From assembly GCA_016763155.1 (NCBI GenBank), contig JAESUH010000187.1, positions 1 to 32,774 on the forward strand: 32,774 nt of DNA, in the 5' to 3' direction. Made by a program: the position numbers and the translations under genes. The notes below the pieces were generated by a model that saw only the letters and a program-made list of their open reading frames with translations, made no database searches and was not told where the DNA came from. This document shows, piece by piece, positions 910 through 13,575 of this stretch (its first letter is position 1; each line of letters begins with the position of its first letter). The DNA comes from Rhizobiaceae bacterium (GTDB lineage Bacteria; Pseudomonadota; Alphaproteobacteria; Rhizobiales; Rhizobiaceae).

Positions 910-1554
910 ATGGCAAACAACAAGGAAGCTCTCGCTGCATTTTTGCTGCGGTTGCGTTCTCAAGGGGTGACAGATCATACCCTGTTGTCAGCTTTTGAAA
1001 AAATTCCACGCAGAAACTTTGTGCCGATTATCCATTTGGATGATGCGTATGCACGTGGGCAAATGCCGATTGAATGCGGGCAGACAATGGCTTCTGCGGA
1101 CCATGTTGCAAAAATAATATCCAATTTGGAAATTGAGCCCTCGCACCGTGTTTTGGAACTTGGCACGGGAACCGGATATCAAACAGCATTGCTTTCGACT
1201 CTTGCCAATAAGGTTACATCTATCGAGCGCTTTCGCACATTATATGAAAAAGCCGAAACCAGGTTATCCAGTCTTGGAATTGAAAATGTCGTTATGATTC
1301 TAGGCGATGCTACGGCGCCGGATACTGAATGGGGGATGTTTGACCGCATTGTTTCGAATTGCGCATTTGCGCATGCTCCCAAGGAATATCTTGAATTCCT
1401 GATATCCGACGGCATTATGATGGCACCGGTTGGACCGCCAGACGGGTTGCAAAAAATTGGCAAATATCGAAAAATTGGCGTTCGATTTGAACTCACAGAA
1501 TTGATGGATATCAGAACCCAACCGTTCTTGCCGGGGATGGCATCTACAATTTGA
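910..1554 (+). CDS. pcm: protein-L-isoaspartate O-methyltransferase
   Basis: VLELGTGTGYQTALLS SAM-binding motif, RRNFVP, GQTMASADHVA; adjacent to surE. Confidence 0.92.
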   Translation: MANNKEALAAFLLRLRSQGVTDHTLLSAFEKIPRRNFVPIIHLDDAYARGQMPIECGQTMASADHVAKIISNLEIEPSHRVLELGTGTGYQTALLSTLANKVTSIERFRTLYEKAETRLSSLGIENVVMILGDATAPDTEWGMFDRIVSNCAFAHAPKEYLEFLISDGIMMAPVGPPDGLQKIGKYRKIGVRFELTELMDIRTQPFLPGMASTI

Positions 1555-3459: not shown

Positions 3460-4299
3460 TTAAAGCTGAATAACATCGCCCTCGCGGGCGACTCCGCTCT
3501 TGGGTTGGGTCTTTTTGATTTCGGCTTCAATCAGGTCCAGTTCGCTATCAACGCGAAATGGCATGTGATGATAAGCAAGATAGGCACCGGCATTGGCCAG
3601 TTTGCAAAGGCGCATGCCTTCTTCAAAGGTTGAGTGCCCATAACCGACAAAATCGGGAAATTCTTCATCCGTCAGGCTGCTGTCGTAGATGAATAAATCC
3701 ACATCCTGGATCAGCTTGATGATATCTTGATTAACCTCACCGGGGATGCTCTCTGTATCGGTCACATAGGCAAAGGAGCGCCCGTCAAAATCCACTCGGT
3801 AGGCGGTTGCTCCGCCGGGGTGATTGAGCGGTGCTGTGGTGATTCTGATTTCAGGTGTGAGATCAAATGCTGCCCATCGAGGGACATGGAGATATTCCAC
3901 ATCAGCTGTAAATACACTTGGTCCGACCGGGAAATAGGGAGGCCGCATTAATTCTTCCACAGTCTCCCTTGTGGAGCTGCTACCTTCAAGCGTGCCGCAC
4001 CAAACCTGAACGTTGAATTTGTCGCAAAAGAAGGGTGCAAAGAACGGGATGCCTTCCATGTGATCGTAATGGGCGTGGGATAAAAACAGATCAATGTTTC
4101 CCTTTCCAACGCCATTGCAAATCTTGCTGCCTAATTCGCGAATGCCTGTTCCTGCATCAAATATAATCGTATGGCCACCGCAGTTGAGTTCCGTGCAATT
4201 GGTATTGCCACCTGTGCGAAGATAAAGCTCTCCGGGTGCAGGAAGGGTGCCGCGTGTTCCCCAAAAAGTAATTGAAAATTCTTTTTTTGCTTTGGTCAA
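3460..4299 (-). CDS. metallo-beta-lactamase fold hydrolase
   Basis: HAHYDHMEG (HxHxDH), NHPGG, VTDTES, YHHMPF metal-ligand motifs. Confidence 0.88.
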   Translation of the reverse strand: MTKAKKEFSITFWGTRGTLPAPGELYLRTGGNTNCTELNCGGHTIIFDAGTGIRELGSKICNGVGKGNIDLFLSHAHYDHMEGIPFFAPFFCDKFNVQVWCGTLEGSSSTRETVEELMRPPYFPVGPSVFTADVEYLHVPRWAAFDLTPEIRITTAPLNHPGGATAYRVDFDGRSFAYVTDTESIPGEVNQDIIKLIQDVDLFIYDSSLTDEEFPDFVGYGHSTFEEGMRLCKLANAGAYLAYHHMPFRVDSELDLIEAEIKKTQPKSGVAREGDVIQL

Positions 4300-4349: not shown

Positions 4350-4817
4350 TTAGCTTGATTGCGATTTCAGTTGTTGGCGTGCTTCACTGAGTTCTGCTGT
4401 GGTTTTACTCAGGCGCAGAGCAAGTTCACGCATTACTTCGATGCCCAGTTGCGGTGCGTCTTCAATCAGCCCCAGGAAGTGTTCTTTCTTGATTTTCAAT
4501 GTATCAAGCTCTCCCTCGGCTTTAATTGTCGCGGTCCTTGGCATGTCGCACAAAATTGCAATCTCGCCAATAAAATCATTCTCTGACAGTTTTGCAACCG
4601 ATACATCATTTCCCCCAATTGAAACGATAACATCTGCAATGCCGGATACAACAACATAGGCAGCGTCTCCCACATCTCCTTGCTTGAAAACAGTCTGTCC
4701 ATCGTGGAATACCTGACGGTCTGACGCAAAGGCAAGAAGTTTCAACTTGCCCGGATCGATGGCTGAAAACAAGGGTATCCTTCGCAGTAGAGTGACTTCA
4801 TCTTCAAGCGTGGACAT
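4350..4817 (-). CDS. stand-alone cyclic nucleotide-binding (CNB) domain protein without recognisable HTH
   Basis: Phosphate-binding cassette FIGEIAILCDMPRTATIKA, preceded by a CNB beta-barrel (FKQGDVGDAAYVVVSG); only about 155 aa. Confidence 0.88.
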   Translation of the reverse strand: MSTLEDEVTLLRRIPLFSAIDPGKLKLLAFASDRQVFHDGQTVFKQGDVGDAAYVVVSGIADVIVSIGGNDVSVAKLSENDFIGEIAILCDMPRTATIKAEGELDTLKIKKEHFLGLIEDAPQLGIEVMRELALRLSKTTAELSEARQQLKSQSS

Positions 4818-4888: not shown

Positions 4889-7672
4889 TCAGACATTCAA
4901 CAATTCCTGAAATTGAGGTTGGGATTTGTTCATGTCGTCAGGATTTCCATCTGCAATCAGCTCCCCGTCAGAAAACAACAATACCCGATCAAATAACAGG
5001 GATATCTTTGGGTTTATTGGGACCCAGATTACACCGCAAGGGTGACCATCGGTATTTCGTGCACGTTTAAGCACGTTTTCAATGATATTACGCTGGCTAC
5101 GTGAATCCAGCGAGTTCAGGGCGCGGTTTACAATTAAGAAATCAGGTTTTTTCAACAATGCGCGGGCAAGGTGCAATTTTTGGCGCTGAATTTCTGAAAG
5201 CCGTTTGCCTCCGGTCCCGATATTGAAATCAAGGCCAATGTGGAAGATATCATCAGTCAAGCCCATTTCGTCGAGCAGGGCCTTGATGGCTTCATCCACC
5301 CGCCCGCTGCCTTCGGCAACATTGGTGGCAACACGGCCAAGAAGCACGTTATCCAGCACGGAAGCGGCAGGATTATAAGATTCCGTTTCAAAAAACGCCA
5401 CAGGCGGAACTTTAAGTTTGCTAAGAATCAGACGAATGCTTTTGCGAGCCTCCAATATGCGGGCGCGCAAATCATCGGTCAGGAGACCCAGACGGTTTTT
5501 GTTTTCCGTGTAGGAAAACGGAAGTTTCATGATCAGCAGGCGGTCTTCCTTGTCAATTTTTGATATGCTCAAATTACCAATTCGGGTCAACGCAGCCTTA
5601 TATTCAGGTAAATCTTCTGCATCCATATAGTTCAATTGATCGAAGAATGGATTATCCGGTGCCAAATCTCCAAACAGATCAACGGTGGTGGCAGCAACTT
5701 CCTTACCCATCTCAAAGAGAGCATCTTCAAGATCGTTTTCAACCAGAATACTCTGGACAATCGGATTGGAGGCAAGGTTTTCCGGTTTGTAAGCTGAATC
5801 AAGTGCTGTTCCAAACAGCAGGTTTTCAGCGACGCTGGCCTGTATATTATAACTATTTGGCTCAAATGGCTCCACAAAGTCTTCAAAACCCAACTCGCTC
5901 AGGCGAGCCTTGAAACGTTTTCTGGCAATGATCAACTGATCACACAAATCGCCATATTCTGCCGGGTCGAGCGTGCCGCGCAGTCCAAATCCGCGAATAT
6001 CTTCTTCCAGTTGAACATCCACCAATATTGACCGAATTTCTTCAATCAGTTCGGAAGGGCCTTTAACGCCTGCACGATCGTAATCGACCCAGTTTGCATT
6101 GAAATCCAATTCAATATTGGCAGCGCGCCGGGTCTCTGCCAGTTGGTTCATATATAGCGCTTCTTCTGCGCCAGTGAGATCACGATCCACAATTGGTTGA
6201 TTCTTGAGCACATAAGTAAGGGCGTTCAAAATTGAAGTCTGAGGAAAGAATGTACCGCCATCCACATAGGAAATGCGCCGTCCGGTAACATATTCCGGCA
6301 GGTCATCAATGGGGGTGCCATTCACATATACCCGGCCAGAGGTGGGCTTTAGAACTCGCGCCAACACTTCTGCCATGTGATGTGAGCCACTATTGACTGC
6401 GCCAACTATTGCAAGTTGTTCGCCGATATTAATGGTTACACTGGCTTTTTCAATCAGCTTGGTCCCGGTTTCATCAGTCACGGCAAGGTTTGAGATATCA
6501 AACCCTTTTGATAATTGAGGAACGGGGCCTGTTGCCGTTATTTGTGTCTCGGGGTCTTGTAAATCGTCTGCTGCAAACTGTTCCAGGATTTGTTCATAGC
6601 GGACTTCAACCGTCAGGCGACGTTGGTCATAGTCAATCAAGCCACGAATTGGATCCGGCAAATCCTTATAGGCTGCAATCACAGCAACCAATTGCCCGAT
6701 ATCCATCGTGCCAGTGATCGCCAGATATCCGCCCACTGCATAAAACAGGAATGCAAGAAACTGGATCAGTAGGTTATTGATGAATTTGACACCAAATTTC
6801 CGTTGAAATAGTTCAAACCGGATAAAATACAACCGTCCTAATATGTCGGAAATGTTTGCCCGCTCATAATTGGTCGTGTCGTTTGTGTGGGCATCCTGAA
6901 TACCATCAACAATTTCACCCAGCCGCCCGGCAAGTTCGCGTGAGGCAATCTGGCGTTGTTTGCCCAGTTGAATTAGCCGCCTGCGCAATCGCGGAACCAG
7001 CCATGCCTGAATAACCACGATGACAAGGGTTGCAAAACCCAGCATCGTATTTTGTAGAAAAATGAATGTAAGGCCCGTAAGTGCCTGGCCACCTAAAAAT
7101 AATGGAAGCGTATAAGCATCCCCGATGAATTCACCCATCGGTTCAACTTCATCCTTGATCATGGTGGCGACTTCGGAAGATTTTGTGCGACGGAATCGGG
7201 GCAGGGGATAACGCAACACCCGATCAAATAGTTGAAAGCGCAGACGGCGCAATATGCGCTCTCCCATGCGCCCTTTAAATGTATTGATATATAATTTAAA
7301 GAGGCCGTTCGCTGCTACCAGACCCAAAAAGGTCAGGCTAAGAGCCAACAAAAACGGAATGCGTTCCAGTTCAAACCCGGAAAATAGCAGAATGGGTTCG
7401 CCCAAAATCCAGTCGGGTACCGGCAAATATGTTTGGAGAAAATGACCGACATCGTCGGGACTTTCAAACCCGAGACCCTGAATTGGGCCGTTGACTATCC
7501 TCTTTGGCAGTTCGAGAGACAAAAAATAAGTCGGCATCGAAAGCAGAATGATGATGAGCATCCAAATCTGTTCTTTGCGCGAATGCCGCCATACATATTT
7601 AAGAAGATTGGGTTCCATCGTGTCCAGACTGCTTCTCTTTGTCAGTTTTCGGATAGTTTCAAATTTTTGCAC
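4889..7672 (-). CDS. ABC exporter-like transmembrane protein with a degenerate, expanded nucleotide-binding domain
   Basis: N-terminal type IV ABC exporter-like TMD; degenerate Walker A (GAVNSGSHH), signature-like LSEIQRQKLHLARALLKKPDFLIVNRALNSLD. GTG start at 7672 or ATG at 7618. Confidence 0.82.
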   Translation of the reverse strand: MQKFETIRKLTKRSSLDTMEPNLLKYVWRHSRKEQIWMLIIILLSMPTYFLSLELPKRIVNGPIQGLGFESPDDVGHFLQTYLPVPDWILGEPILLFSGFELERIPFLLALSLTFLGLVAANGLFKLYINTFKGRMGERILRRLRFQLFDRVLRYPLPRFRRTKSSEVATMIKDEVEPMGEFIGDAYTLPLFLGGQALTGLTFIFLQNTMLGFATLVIVVIQAWLVPRLRRRLIQLGKQRQIASRELAGRLGEIVDGIQDAHTNDTTNYERANISDILGRLYFIRFELFQRKFGVKFINNLLIQFLAFLFYAVGGYLAITGTMDIGQLVAVIAAYKDLPDPIRGLIDYDQRRLTVEVRYEQILEQFAADDLQDPETQITATGPVPQLSKGFDISNLAVTDETGTKLIEKASVTINIGEQLAIVGAVNSGSHHMAEVLARVLKPTSGRVYVNGTPIDDLPEYVTGRRISYVDGGTFFPQTSILNALTYVLKNQPIVDRDLTGAEEALYMNQLAETRRAANIELDFNANWVDYDRAGVKGPSELIEEIRSILVDVQLEEDIRGFGLRGTLDPAEYGDLCDQLIIARKRFKARLSELGFEDFVEPFEPNSYNIQASVAENLLFGTALDSAYKPENLASNPIVQSILVENDLEDALFEMGKEVAATTVDLFGDLAPDNPFFDQLNYMDAEDLPEYKAALTRIGNLSISKIDKEDRLLIMKLPFSYTENKNRLGLLTDDLRARILEARKSIRLILSKLKVPPVAFFETESYNPAASVLDNVLLGRVATNVAEGSGRVDEAIKALLDEMGLTDDIFHIGLDFNIGTGGKRLSEIQRQKLHLARALLKKPDFLIVNRALNSLDSRSQRNIIENVLKRARNTDGHPCGVIWVPINPKISLLFDRVLLFSDGELIADGNPDDMNKSQPQFQELLNV

Positions 7673-7682
7673 TTAATACAAG

Positions 7683-9461
7683 TTAGGTGCTTTCCAACAA
7701 CTTTTCCAGAGTTTTCATATTTGTCATGGCTACGACTTCAATTGGCATTGTAATATTGTGGACATAGATTTCGGAGGTTTCGCCCAATTTGTCGATTGCT
7801 TCTTTGCCACCTTTAATCTGGTCCAGTTCAGCGCATTTTATCAATTCGCTGGACGCGACGATTTTGCATTGAAGTTCTTTCGTCGCGGATTCCAGACGTG
7901 CCGCAACATTTACAGTATCGCCAATCGCAGTAAGCCTGCTTGGCGTTACCTGATCGGAGGTTTTGCCAATACGCCCCACAACGGCTGTACCCACATGAAT
8001 GCCAATGCCAATCTTGATTGGTTCATCAATATGCTGGGTAAGCATCTGGCTGACCCGCTCCGTTGCGGCCTGAGCATTACAAGCTGCATAAAGTGCGTCG
8101 CGACAAGCTTGGGACGGAGAAGATGACAGGCCGAAAAGCGCCATCATTCCATCTCCCATAAATTTATCCACATAGCCGTTTTTGCCCTCAATTTCGCGGG
8201 TGATTTCATCAAAAAAGCTGTTGAGAATGAAAACGATATCATAGGGCAAGCTTTTTTCAGATATTTTGGAAAACCCGCGTATATCCAAAAATAATACGAC
8301 AATTTCGCGCTCCACCCCCCAGCCAAGCGGGTCTGTATGGCGTGAAGTGGCAACGCTGCTTTGTGTTTCAATCAATGGGCGAATTTCAATGTCTCCGCGC
8401 ACTCTTGCCTGACAAGCAAGACGAATATCTGCGTCAGCGTTTAATTTCGTGAGTAATTTGGTTTCTGATTCCGTTGGCGGGCTCAGGTTTTCTTTGCCAC
8501 TAACCACCAGGGTTCGGCAGGTCGAACATCTTGCGCGTCCTCCGCAAACAGACATGTGGGGTATTCCTGCAAGTCTGCTGACATCCAAAATAGTGGAGCC
8601 CGGCGGTGTGGATACAACACTGCCATCGCCATAGGTAACGGAGACTGAGTCGCGAAATCTGGAAATCGTATAGCGAATGAGGAGTACCAATAATATGAAC
8701 ACTGCCATGCCCATGATGTTGTTTTGGGCAAAACTTTCCCACTCAGCCAGCGTTTCGCGGATGAATTGGATGATTTCACGAATTTCCTGATCTTCGGCTG
8801 AAAGTTGTCCTCCCCCACCATTTGAACCGGATGCCGAATTCGCAATTTTTTGGGCAGCATCAGCCTGACGCCGCGCGGCTGCAATCCAGCCAGAAATAGA
8901 AATTGCCGGCACCAGCACTGTCATACTCAATAATAAGGGAAAATATTTGGTGTAATTATTACGGATGCGCAGCCAGAAATGAATTCCGAGGCAGCCATGC
9001 GTCCAAACGATCAACATCAGCGCGGTTTGTTGTAATGCGGCACCCGACCAGATGAGCGATAATTCCTGAGAATAATTGACATCGATACCAAGTTCCACCT
9101 CCGCCCAGCGCGCGTAGACCAGATGGGACGCAAGCCAGAATGGTATTGAGAGCCCCAGTAGAATTTGCGCCCATTCCCATGCGGGTAGGCGGTAGGTGTT
9201 TAAGGTTGCAACCCGCCATAGGCCTAACCCGGCATGAACACTCAGGGCGCCGTATAAAACAAAGATGCCCACATAGGATTGCCAAATCGTTGCTTGCCAA
9301 ACCAGAACAGTTTCCATCGCAGCAATTGAAACATGGCCAAGTGCATGATTGAGGAAATGTAAGGTGACATAAAACATCAGCACCAGACCGCTAAACAGCC
9401 GCGCGCGCTGTAGGGCTGAGCCTCTTCCGGTCAGGTCTATGGTATCAAGACTGTTTGCCAC
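7683..9461 (-). CDS. class III adenylate/guanylate cyclase with N-terminal multi-TM domain and 2Fe-2S ferredoxin domain
   Basis: His-rich TM region (LHFLNH, VHAGLGLWR, WTHGCLGIHFWLR), ferredoxin motif CGGRARCSTC...LAC (CX5CX2CX34C), cyclase motifs LFLDIRGFS, GYVDKFMGDGMMALFG, TAIGDTVNVAARLE. Confidence 0.93.
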   Translation of the reverse strand: MANSLDTIDLTGRGSALQRARLFSGLVLMFYVTLHFLNHALGHVSIAAMETVLVWQATIWQSYVGIFVLYGALSVHAGLGLWRVATLNTYRLPAWEWAQILLGLSIPFWLASHLVYARWAEVELGIDVNYSQELSLIWSGAALQQTALMLIVWTHGCLGIHFWLRIRNNYTKYFPLLLSMTVLVPAISISGWIAAARRQADAAQKIANSASGSNGGGGQLSAEDQEIREIIQFIRETLAEWESFAQNNIMGMAVFILLVLLIRYTISRFRDSVSVTYGDGSVVSTPPGSTILDVSRLAGIPHMSVCGGRARCSTCRTLVVSGKENLSPPTESETKLLTKLNADADIRLACQARVRGDIEIRPLIETQSSVATSRHTDPLGWGVEREIVVLFLDIRGFSKISEKSLPYDIVFILNSFFDEITREIEGKNGYVDKFMGDGMMALFGLSSSPSQACRDALYAACNAQAATERVSQMLTQHIDEPIKIGIGIHVGTAVVGRIGKTSDQVTPSRLTAIGDTVNVAARLESATKELQCKIVASSELIKCAELDQIKGGKEAIDKLGETSEIYVHNITMPIEVVAMTNMKTLEKLLEST

Positions 9462-9698: not shown

Positions 9699-10937
9699 AT
9701 GTCTCAAGACGCACTTCTAACGCCTATTCGGGAATGGTTGATCGACCAGTCTTTGGGTGATTCTGACATTGTTTCTCTATTTGAGACCCTATGTCTGCGC
9801 CTTACTGCGATTGGAATTCCCATTGTACGCGGCAGGCTTATTTGGTCTACGCTTCACCCACTGTTTCAGGCTGAAACAGTGATGTGGGATCGTGGAAAAC
9901 CTGCGGTTCTCGAACAATTTGTTCATCAGGATGAAGAGACCAGCACATGGTCACGCAGCCCGATGAAATACGTTATCGAAAATGAGATTGAAGTATTTCA
10001 GCGCAGGCTGGACGGTCCGAATGAGCTGCTTGACTATGACATGCTTCATGATTTGAAAAAGCAAGGCGTCACGGATTATCTTGTTTTGGCAACCAAGCTT
10101 GAAACGCCGCACACCAGAAGGCAAAATCAAACAGGTGCGCGTGGGATAATTGTGACCTGGGCCACCGACCGTCCATCAGGGTTTTCCGCAGATGATCTGA
10201 ACTCACTACAACAAATCCAGAAACGATTTGCTGTCGCATGTAAAACCCTTGTCCAGTCGCGTGTTTCAAAAAACATTACCCGAACTTATCTTGGCGATCG
10301 GGCCGGGCAAAGTGTGTTGGATGGGCAAATTCGCCTAGGTGACGGGCAAAAAACCAAGGCAGTGGTTTGGTTTTCTGATCTTCGCGGCTCCACAAGTCAT
10401 GCGGAAACAATGGAATCAGATGCCTATTTCAATATGCTCAATAGCTATTTTGAAACCACCGCTGGAAGCGTTGTGAATAATGGTGGAGAGGTGCTGGATT
10501 TCATCGGAGACGGTGTCCTGGGTATTTTTCCTTATGACAGTGATGAGGATCTGCCTGTGGCTGCAAATCAAGCCCATTTGGCGCTGGATCAGACAATCGC
10601 CCGGGCAAATGATGTGAATGCCGAGCGTCAATCTGCAGGTCTGCAACGCTATAAGTTTGGTGTGGGGCTGAATGTGGGAGAAGTCATGTTCGGCAATATT
10701 GGCATTCCTGAGCGCTTGTCGTTTTCTGTGATTGGCCCTTCTGTCAATGAAGTGTCCAGAATTGAACAAATGACTAAATTCCTGCAAAAGCCTGTTCTGG
10801 CTGGCAAAAAACTAGCTTCTCTTGCTCCAAAACGTTGGCAATCTGTGGGACCCCATAAATTGGAAGGGGTGCTTGAGCCAGTGGAACTGTTTAGCTTTAA
10901 ATGTGCGGCCAATGAATGCAGTTCCTCGCTCTTATAG
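9699..10937 (+). CDS. class III adenylate/guanylate cyclase domain protein
   Basis: VVWFSDLRGSTSHAE, GGEVLDFIGDGVLGIFP, FGVGLNVGEVMFGNIGIPERLSFSVIGPSVNEVSRIE. Confidence 0.93.
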   Translation: MSQDALLTPIREWLIDQSLGDSDIVSLFETLCLRLTAIGIPIVRGRLIWSTLHPLFQAETVMWDRGKPAVLEQFVHQDEETSTWSRSPMKYVIENEIEVFQRRLDGPNELLDYDMLHDLKKQGVTDYLVLATKLETPHTRRQNQTGARGIIVTWATDRPSGFSADDLNSLQQIQKRFAVACKTLVQSRVSKNITRTYLGDRAGQSVLDGQIRLGDGQKTKAVVWFSDLRGSTSHAETMESDAYFNMLNSYFETTAGSVVNNGGEVLDFIGDGVLGIFPYDSDEDLPVAANQAHLALDQTIARANDVNAERQSAGLQRYKFGVGLNVGEVMFGNIGIPERLSFSVIGPSVNEVSRIEQMTKFLQKPVLAGKKLASLAPKRWQSVGPHKLEGVLEPVELFSFKCAANECSSSLL

Positions 10938-12808: not shown

Positions 12809-12909
12809 ACAACAAATAGCGCCAACAAATATTTCGCAGTGGCATCAAACTGCCCTTGGGTGGTATAGATAGCGCTGGCGATTCATTCCCTGGGCGGAGT
12901 ATTTGTAAT

Positions 12910-13575
12910 ATGATTGATTTCTCTAAAGCACGCACGATCATGGTGGACTGCCAGGTGCGAACGGTAGATGTAACCGAACTTGAATTGTTGTCGGCTATGT
13001 TATCTGTGCCACGAGAGGAATTTGTGCCAGCTGATGCACGTCCATTGGCTTATATCGACGAAGATATTCCTCTTAAATCCCTTGCAAACTCTGAGCGTTA
13101 TTTGATGGAGCCCGGTCCATTTGGCCGTTTGTTGCAATTGGCTGCTCTGCAAAAGGATGATGTGGTTTTGGATGTTGGTTGCGGCAGCGGTTATTCCTCT
13201 GCGGTGATGTCCTTGTTATGCACATCAGTTGTTGCGGTAGAAGAAGACGACGCGTTGGTAGAATTTGCTTCAAATAAATTGAACGAACTTGAATATCATG
13301 GGGCTGTGGTTGTCAAAAACCCACTGACCGAAGGATATCCAAGCGAAGGCCCTTATGATGTCATTTTCCTGGGTGGGGCTGTGGATAAAATTCCTGATGC
13401 TATTTTTGATCAATTGAAAGAAGATGGGCGTCTGGTTGCTGTTGAGGGAATGGGAAATGCTGCAATTGCGAAGCTGTATTTCAAGGAAGGTGGCAAGATT
13501 TCAGGCCAGTTTGCCTTTAATTGCTCAATTCAGCCACTGCCAGGCTTTCAAAATGAGCCGGAATTCGTATTTTAG
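12910..13575 (+). CDS. protein-L-isoaspartate O-methyltransferase family protein (second paralogue)
   Basis: VVLDVGCGSGYSSAVMS SAM motif, REEFVP; ATG at 12910 (MIDFSKARTIMVDCQVRT) preferred over 12856. Confidence 0.88.
   Translation: MIDFSKARTIMVDCQVRTVDVTELELLSAMLSVPREEFVPADARPLAYIDEDIPLKSLANSERYLMEPGPFGRLLQLAALQKDDVVLDVGCGSGYSSAVMSLLCTSVVAVEEDDALVEFASNKLNELEYHGAVVVKNPLTEGYPSEGPYDVIFLGGAVDKIPDAIFDQLKEDGRLVAVEGMGNAAIAKLYFKEGGKISGQFAFNCSIQPLPGFQNEPEFVF

Follow-up and report, generated by a model that had tools for sequence, protein, structure and literature searches.

An expanded ABC exporter relative with degenerate ATP-site motifs, paired with a cyclic-nucleotide-binding protein in Alphaproteobacteria

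What can an ABC exporter relative do when its ATP site appears to be dead? This question is raised by an open reading frame in the window, i.e., the whole 32,774-nucleotide stretch of Rhizobiaceae DNA analysed here. An earlier note had described its product as an exporter-like protein with an apparently dead and internally expanded ATPase domain, and had suggested a non-transport, perhaps sensory or regulatory, role. The reading frame at 4889-7672 on the minus strand and all motif positions quoted in that note were found again, and the features of the protein are as follows.

4889..7672, minus strand: pseudo-ABC exporter, 927 aa, from the reading frame, Pfam and motif reading; GTG start at 7672
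6578..7615, minus strand: exporter-type transmembrane domain, residues 20-365 (Pfam ABC_membrane 4.9e-19)
6377..6403, minus strand: degenerate Walker A GAVNSGSHH, Lys replaced by Ser430 (motif reading and family alignment)
6206..6283, minus strand: Q-loop-like segment 1, residues 464-489 (alignment and profile comparison)
5801..5875, minus strand: Q-loop-like segment 2, residues 600-624 (profile comparison)
5402..6184, minus strand: all-helical family-specific insertion, residues 497-757, without PDB fold match
5327..5404, minus strand: Q-loop-like segment 3, residues 757-782 (profile comparison)
5186..5200, minus strand: degenerate signature LSEIQ (motif reading and family alignment)
5105..5140, minus strand: degenerate Walker B/D-loop FLIVNRALNSLD, Asp replaced by Asn849 and Glu by Arg850 (motif reading and alignment)
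5006..5035, minus strand: H-loop region GVIWVPINPK without His (motif reading and family alignment)

In the orthologue alignment, conservation at the N-terminus sets in at the position of Met19, and the ATG at 7618 is therefore a plausible true start instead of the GTG at 7672, giving 909 aa. The exporter-like transmembrane domain (TMD) claimed for the N-terminal half is borne out by Pfam ABC_membrane (residues 108-332, 69.5 bits against a cut-off of 28). The fold of an ABC nucleotide-binding domain (NBD) is found by Pfam ABC_tran (3.6e-12, split over two stretches, 47.5 bits against a cut-off of 25), by the AlphaFold model and by PDB sequence matches, which are exporters, e.g., ABCB4, PCAT1, BmrA and MsbA. 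Mean pLDDT of the model is 82, with about 90 through the NBD and the insert, the core NBD strands are present, and the Foldseek matches are ABC exporters, with TmrAB among the nearest folds. On these comparisons, the 927-aa protein is an ABC exporter relative by descent. It has the common TMD/NBD fold and the single-chain half-transporter layout of type IV (ABCB-like) exporters such as MsbA, TmrAB, PCAT1 and the PglK flippase, and differs from them in the loss of ATP-site motifs, in a helical insertion of about 300 aa with repeated Q-loop units, and in a near-constant partner that binds cyclic nucleotides (cNMP).

Judged by its motifs, the window protein fails every motif test for a functional ABC ATPase. 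Its Walker A (GAVNSGSH) departs from GxxxxGK[ST], Asn849 and Arg850 stand in place of the Walker B Asp and the catalytic Glu, LSEIQ replaces LSGGQ with both signature glycines gone, and Ile occupies the position of the H-loop His. The four motif readings of the earlier note were confirmed in this way, and its claim of a dead ATPase domain is supported for this protein. Among 177 relatives, the position of the Walker A Lys holds Lys in 42, Ala in 67 and Arg in 32. The adjoining residue (Ser/Thr, Mg-binding) is Glu or Asp in 122/177 members and the Walker B Asp is Asn in 134/177, which together look like a charge swap family-wide. The catalytic Glu is kept in 41 and the H-loop His in 22 of the 177. 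Loss of the Walker A and B residues is thus predominant but not universal, and orthologues with canonical motifs, which the earlier note had named as evidence against its reading, exist as a small minority, since Lys, Walker B Asp and Glu are all retained in five relatives (5/177) and one (L216) is nearly canonical, with GKT, DE, His and LSGAQ. The verdict on the window protein is unchanged by them. ATP might still matter in some relatives, because these few keep near-canonical sites.

From the Walker A Lys position (430) to the signature Ser (826), there are 396 residues. This spacing is about 100 residues in ordinary ABC exporters, and the window protein therefore carries about 300 extra residues, in agreement with the size noted earlier. 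Three candidate repeat units (U1, residues 440-597; U2, 590-750; U3, 735-846) were compared by using profiles built on 115 non-redundant family members. In each unit, a Q-loop-like sequence with a consensus resembling YNxxASVxENLLFG precedes a helical element, which closes with a GL-like motif. Profile-profile comparison gave E 2e-14 (score 83) for U2/U3, 1e-7 (score 46) for U1/U3 and 1e-6 (score 43) for U1/U2; as controls, U2/U3 scored at most 17.8 over 20 column shuffles, and the best membrane-domain window scored 13.7. The linker helices preceding Q-loops 2 and 3 are likewise duplicated (E 1e-13), and profile comparison of these helices with the signature helix gave no significant relatedness. 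A search with the insert profile on its own also recovers the third repeat (2e-8). On this evidence (E 1e-6 to 2e-14), the three Q-loop-like segments in series are true repeats, and the partial duplication of the NBD helical/Q-loop region suggested earlier is supported by the same comparisons. Modelled alone, the insert is all-helical (pLDDT 86); no match was obtained for its model among PDB folds (best E 0.74) or for its profile among PDB sequences.

The insert profile matches 131 of 385 sampled alphaproteobacterial genomes, i.e., about a third, and among 399 sampled Pseudomonadota genomes every match lies in the class of the window, Alphaproteobacteria. The family usually has one copy per genome, is widespread across alphaproteobacterial families, and is represented by hundreds of full-length orthologues, with full-length relatives abundant in Rhizobiales; viral contigs gave no relatives. 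Despite the class-restricted result of the sampling, one member with 49% identity (L072) stands in a record named Plasticicumulans lactativorans, a gammaproteobacterium, and was probably acquired by horizontal transfer. The family is one of ancient, mostly alphaproteobacterial pseudo-ABC exporters. The dN/dS against a same-genus orthologue is about 0.04, with 0.03-0.06 across all domains, values that are approximate as Ks is near saturation; the gene is under strong purifying selection.

The insert profile served to gather the family, and every member therefore has the insert by construction. On the tree of membrane domains, the Lys state at Walker A needs 19 changes, and the large Rhizobiales-type group of the window (37 tree rows) is uniformly without the Lys. 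This tree is unrooted, as rooting with ordinary exporters failed, the end branches of that outgroup having 5 to 10 changes per column, and the direction of change was therefore argued from motif states. Read in this manner, it is much easier to credit that the catalytic Lys was lost repeatedly than that it was gained repeatedly. Because 42/177 keep Lys and a few are nearly canonical, the motif states point to an expansion that is family-wide and to ATP sites that decayed afterwards, many times.

The gene next to the pseudo-ABC exporter shows the opposite condition.

4350..4817, minus strand: 155-aa protein of a single cyclic-nucleotide-binding domain, without DNA-binding domain (Pfam cNMP_binding 3.5e-19)
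4527..4574, minus strand: its intact phosphate-binding cassette FIGEIAILCDMPRTAT (family comparison)

Unlike the ATP site of the ABC protein, the cassette of the cNMP partner is kept: that of the window has both Glu and Arg as in a cyclic-nucleotide receptor, and Arg is retained in 166/167 and Glu in 151/167 of the partners. The partner is distinct from Crp/Fnr regulators, which have a C-terminal DNA-binding domain, because its 155 aa hold the cNMP domain alone. Of the 175 loci with room to judge it, 167 have such a gene, either as the next one downstream in the same orientation (152) or joined to the C-terminal end of the ABC protein (15); a first pass gave 112/116, and the fusion needs one change on the tree. 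In the fused members L158-L163, the cNMP cassette has diverged (Glu to Asp in several), and up to three copies are found per genome (G123). One clade (L150, L151, L152 and L155) has no cNMP receptor gene, and its sampled genome (G068) is also without the GT28-type enzyme described below; its members have extra residues in the signature region. The window's genome has eight ABC exporters and seven cNMP proteins, among which the pseudo-ABC exporter and its partner are the sole linked pair, and the partner, with a frame of 156 aa in this search, is the only one of the seven too short for a DNA-binding domain.

Two further genes adjoin this pair.

7683..9461, minus strand: CyaC-like class III adenylate cyclase with N-terminal membrane part, 2Fe-2S ferredoxin and cyclase domain (Pfam)
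3460..4299, minus strand: MBL-fold hydrolase, RNase Z/PhnP-like (domain searches)

On the minus strand, the cyclase gene (9461-7683) is followed by those for the ABC protein, the cNMP protein and the MBL hydrolase, and the four likely form an operon because the gaps are only 10, 71 and 50 bp. The cyclase matches Fer2 (1.3e-9) and Guanylate_cyc (5.2e-18) in Pfam and has its catalytic residues by eye; with a membrane part predicted from its sequence, its layout is that of Sinorhizobium meliloti CyaC, a membrane-bound, redox-sensitive 2Fe-2S cyclase (PMC10463352). The gene for the latter (smc01818) is chromosomal and stands beside regulator genes (PMC10463352), whereas the ABC orthologue of S. 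meliloti is on pSymB. A cyclase is found within 7 kb in 28/40 non-redundant Rhizobiales-type loci vs 13/75 class-wide loci, and this link is therefore mainly a Rhizobiales-type feature; the MBL gene is near the family in 28/40 vs 2/75 loci. A cyclic-nucleotide phosphodiesterase activity of the MBL hydrolase is only speculative.

Two of the nine cyclase matches in the window's genome flank the pseudo-ABC gene. The second cyclase-like protein, at 9699-10937 (+), is transcribed divergently (Guanylate_cyc 1e-7), and by eye it reads LDFIGDG instead of DKFMGDG, without the usual adenine-specifying Lys, and has Pro-Ser after Gly where the first cyclase has Asp-Thr; these two changes make prediction of its substrate ambiguous. 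Other observations on the neighbourhoods are two separate protein-L-isoaspartate methyltransferase-like genes in the window (910-1554 and 12856-13575, +), a CHASE2-domain cyclase and a FecR-domain protein near the family gene of a same-genus relative (L033, 156-3420), and a DUF3095 protein (L038, 354-1541) recurring near the family in 17 loci.

A GT28-type glycosyltransferase is present in 124 of the 131 family-positive genomes vs 3 of the 254 negative ones (Fisher p 7e-88, which overstates the association because the genomes are related, the pattern nonetheless spanning many families). Recurrent neighbours of the family gene are glycosyltransferases of the GT28/MurG and GT4 types, encoded within 7 kb of it in 46/75 non-redundant class-wide loci. 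In the window's genome, the glycosyltransferase trio is unlinked to the ABC gene and is kept as a set on contig C34, where its neighbour is an Opp-type importer, an arrangement also seen in Rhizobium and Sinorhizobium. The cNMP pairing and the co-occurrence with glycan enzymes suggest that the making of a surface polysaccharide includes a step under cyclic-nucleotide control. The near-constant pairing and this co-occurrence are new observations of the present analysis, and the open-access literature searched gave no description of the family, of its SMb or pRL11 (R. leguminosarum) tags, or of a link among ABC, cNMP and polysaccharide.

On pSymB of S. meliloti, the orthologue occupies 841.7-844.4 kb, and together with the cNMP gene the pair extends over about 841.7-845 kb. 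When genes are counted from nodP2, which is smb21223 (PMC5498481), the orthologue would fall near smb21266-21269, inside the region smb21252-smb21271. Nine genes of this region are ascribed to the phazolicin-protecting polysaccharide (PPP) in a published screen (PMC10128002), so that the orthologue and its glycosyltransferase neighbours would share a pSymB region with the PPP cluster. According to the same study, mutants of smb21252 and smb21265 (glycosyltransferase) are hypersensitive to phazolicin, insertions in the adenylate cyclase gene cyaA were depleted in the screen, PPP is linked to antimicrobial-peptide resistance and symbiosis, and its text assigns no function to the ABC and cNMP genes (PMC10128002). 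In S. meliloti 1021 pSymB (L234), the longest frame of the orthologue is 805 aa vs 916 in strain 2011, with a one-base length difference, which is either a sequencing error or a real frameshift.

With regard to the role proposed in the earlier note, the regulatory part is better grounded than before, because the family is almost constantly paired with a cyclic-nucleotide receptor. The non-transport part is not favoured; gated, ATP-independent transport is conceivable, since conservation within the family is highest in the TMD (mean majority-residue frequency 0.63 vs 0.44-0.58 in the NBD parts) and the family tracks a glycan-synthesis pathway. We give an even chance to the reading that the protein is a cyclic-nucleotide-controlled, ATP-independent ABC relative, i.e., a homodimeric switch whose pseudo-NBD docks the cNMP receptor and which serves a surface-glycan pathway. 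Motif loss, the triple repeat, purifying selection, partner pairing or fusion and glycosyltransferase co-occurrence are its parts read from the sequences. An ABC exporter ancestor would have gained two extra copies of the Q-loop/helical subdomain (about 300 aa), and its ATP sites would then have decayed repeatedly. The resulting pseudo-exporter is most likely a switch in the membrane that functions as a homodimer and offers its enlarged pseudo-NBD as a docking platform to the small cNMP-binding protein, to which it is fused in one lineage. Binding of a cyclic nucleotide (cAMP or cGMP, between which the R-T-A-T end of the cassette does not discriminate), instead of ATP hydrolysis, would set the state of the membrane domain, and in the lineage of the window the adjacent CyaC-like cyclase would supply the ligand. 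The output most likely serves the conserved surface-glycan pathway built by the GT28- and GT4-type glycosyltransferases, with the pseudo-exporter as the gated conduit or flippase that would move the glycan, or a lipid-linked precursor of it. The homodimer, docking, ligand gating, the transported substance and the kind of ligand are inferred. The most specific form is held more tentatively, as somewhat less probable than not: here the ABC exporter fold would have become a glycan translocator or switch that is gated directly by a cyclic nucleotide and works without ATP, and the decayed, expanded NBD would be the domain on which the receptor docks.

The main rival, which we consider unlikely, is a non-transporting receptor or scaffold, where the pseudo-exporter and the cNMP receptor activate or anchor glycosyltransferases and move nothing across the membrane. 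Allosteric activation of cellulose or Pel synthesis by c-di-GMP receptors is of this kind, and the loss of every catalytic motif in the window protein, the intact cNMP receptor domain and the near-perfect co-occurrence with the GT28-type enzyme agree with it. However, the well-conserved TMD fits a conduit at least as well, and no glycan exporter was found among the recurrent, annotatable neighbours of the family.

It is also distinctly improbable that the protein is still an ATP-driven exporter, binding ATP without the Walker A Lys and merely modulated by the cyclic-nucleotide domain. The predicted NBD fold is intact in the AlphaFold model, and some relatives keep Lys, Glu and His, one of them with GKT and DE; the lineage of the window, in contrast, is without Lys, Asp, Glu, His and both signature glycines, and an acidic residue at the Mg-binding Ser/Thr is the common state of the family (122/177).

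Very little credence is given to a heterodimeric exporter of the TmrAB or TAP kind, with the window protein as the degenerate half and the functional ATP site on its partner. Heterodimeric exporters commonly have degenerate sites and TmrAB is among the nearest folds, but there is no partner half-transporter within the window, another exporter-like reading frame is found within 7 kb in only 13/177 loci and within 1.5 kb in 3, and both faces of the ATP site are degenerate, including the signature that a partner would need.

Still harder to credit is a Pycsar-like anti-phage system consisting of a cyclase and a cyclic-nucleotide-gated membrane effector. PADLOC models match the cyclase as PycC (5e-27) and the cNMP protein as a TIR effector (2e-13); however, these matches are to generic cyclase and cNMP domains, most class-wide loci lack a cyclase, and the family is widespread in alphaproteobacterial families, usually single-copy and tied to glycosyltransferases. 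A decaying pseudogene or an assembly artefact, which the missing ATP motifs of the window protein could have indicated, is refuted by the hundreds of full-length orthologues and the dN/dS of about 0.04.

The cyclic-nucleotide-controlled switch can be compared with known systems. NHLP bacteriocin export likewise has an ABC exporter with a cNMP-binding protein (cyc_nuc_ocin), and TIGR03796 and TIGR03896 give weak matches at the window, far under their cut-offs (118 vs 853 bits and 33 vs 161 bits). NHLP ABC proteins, however, carry peptidase and working ATPase domains. CFTR and SUR are ABC proteins turned into a channel or a regulator, having the ABC exporter fold with a regulatory input and a degenerate site; they are eukaryotic, have two NBDs and still use ATP, and cyclic-nucleotide control of CFTR is exerted via PKA. 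The present family has a type of insertion absent from these proteins, and its control would be by a direct cNMP-binding partner.

If the proposed reading is true, bacteria would have made, independently, a conversion like those of CFTR and SUR, and the family would parallel polysaccharide secretion under c-di-GMP control, with a cyclic mononucleotide as the signal. It would provide a candidate direct target of cAMP or cGMP in alphaproteobacteria, whose genomes can encode many cyclases (28 reported in S. meliloti; PMC10463352) for few known outputs, and would give access to the little-characterised surface polysaccharide PPP. In an ABC exporter spread over an entire bacterial class, binding of a second messenger would have repeatedly taken the place of ATP hydrolysis, and near-canonical relatives would still exist for tracing this replacement.
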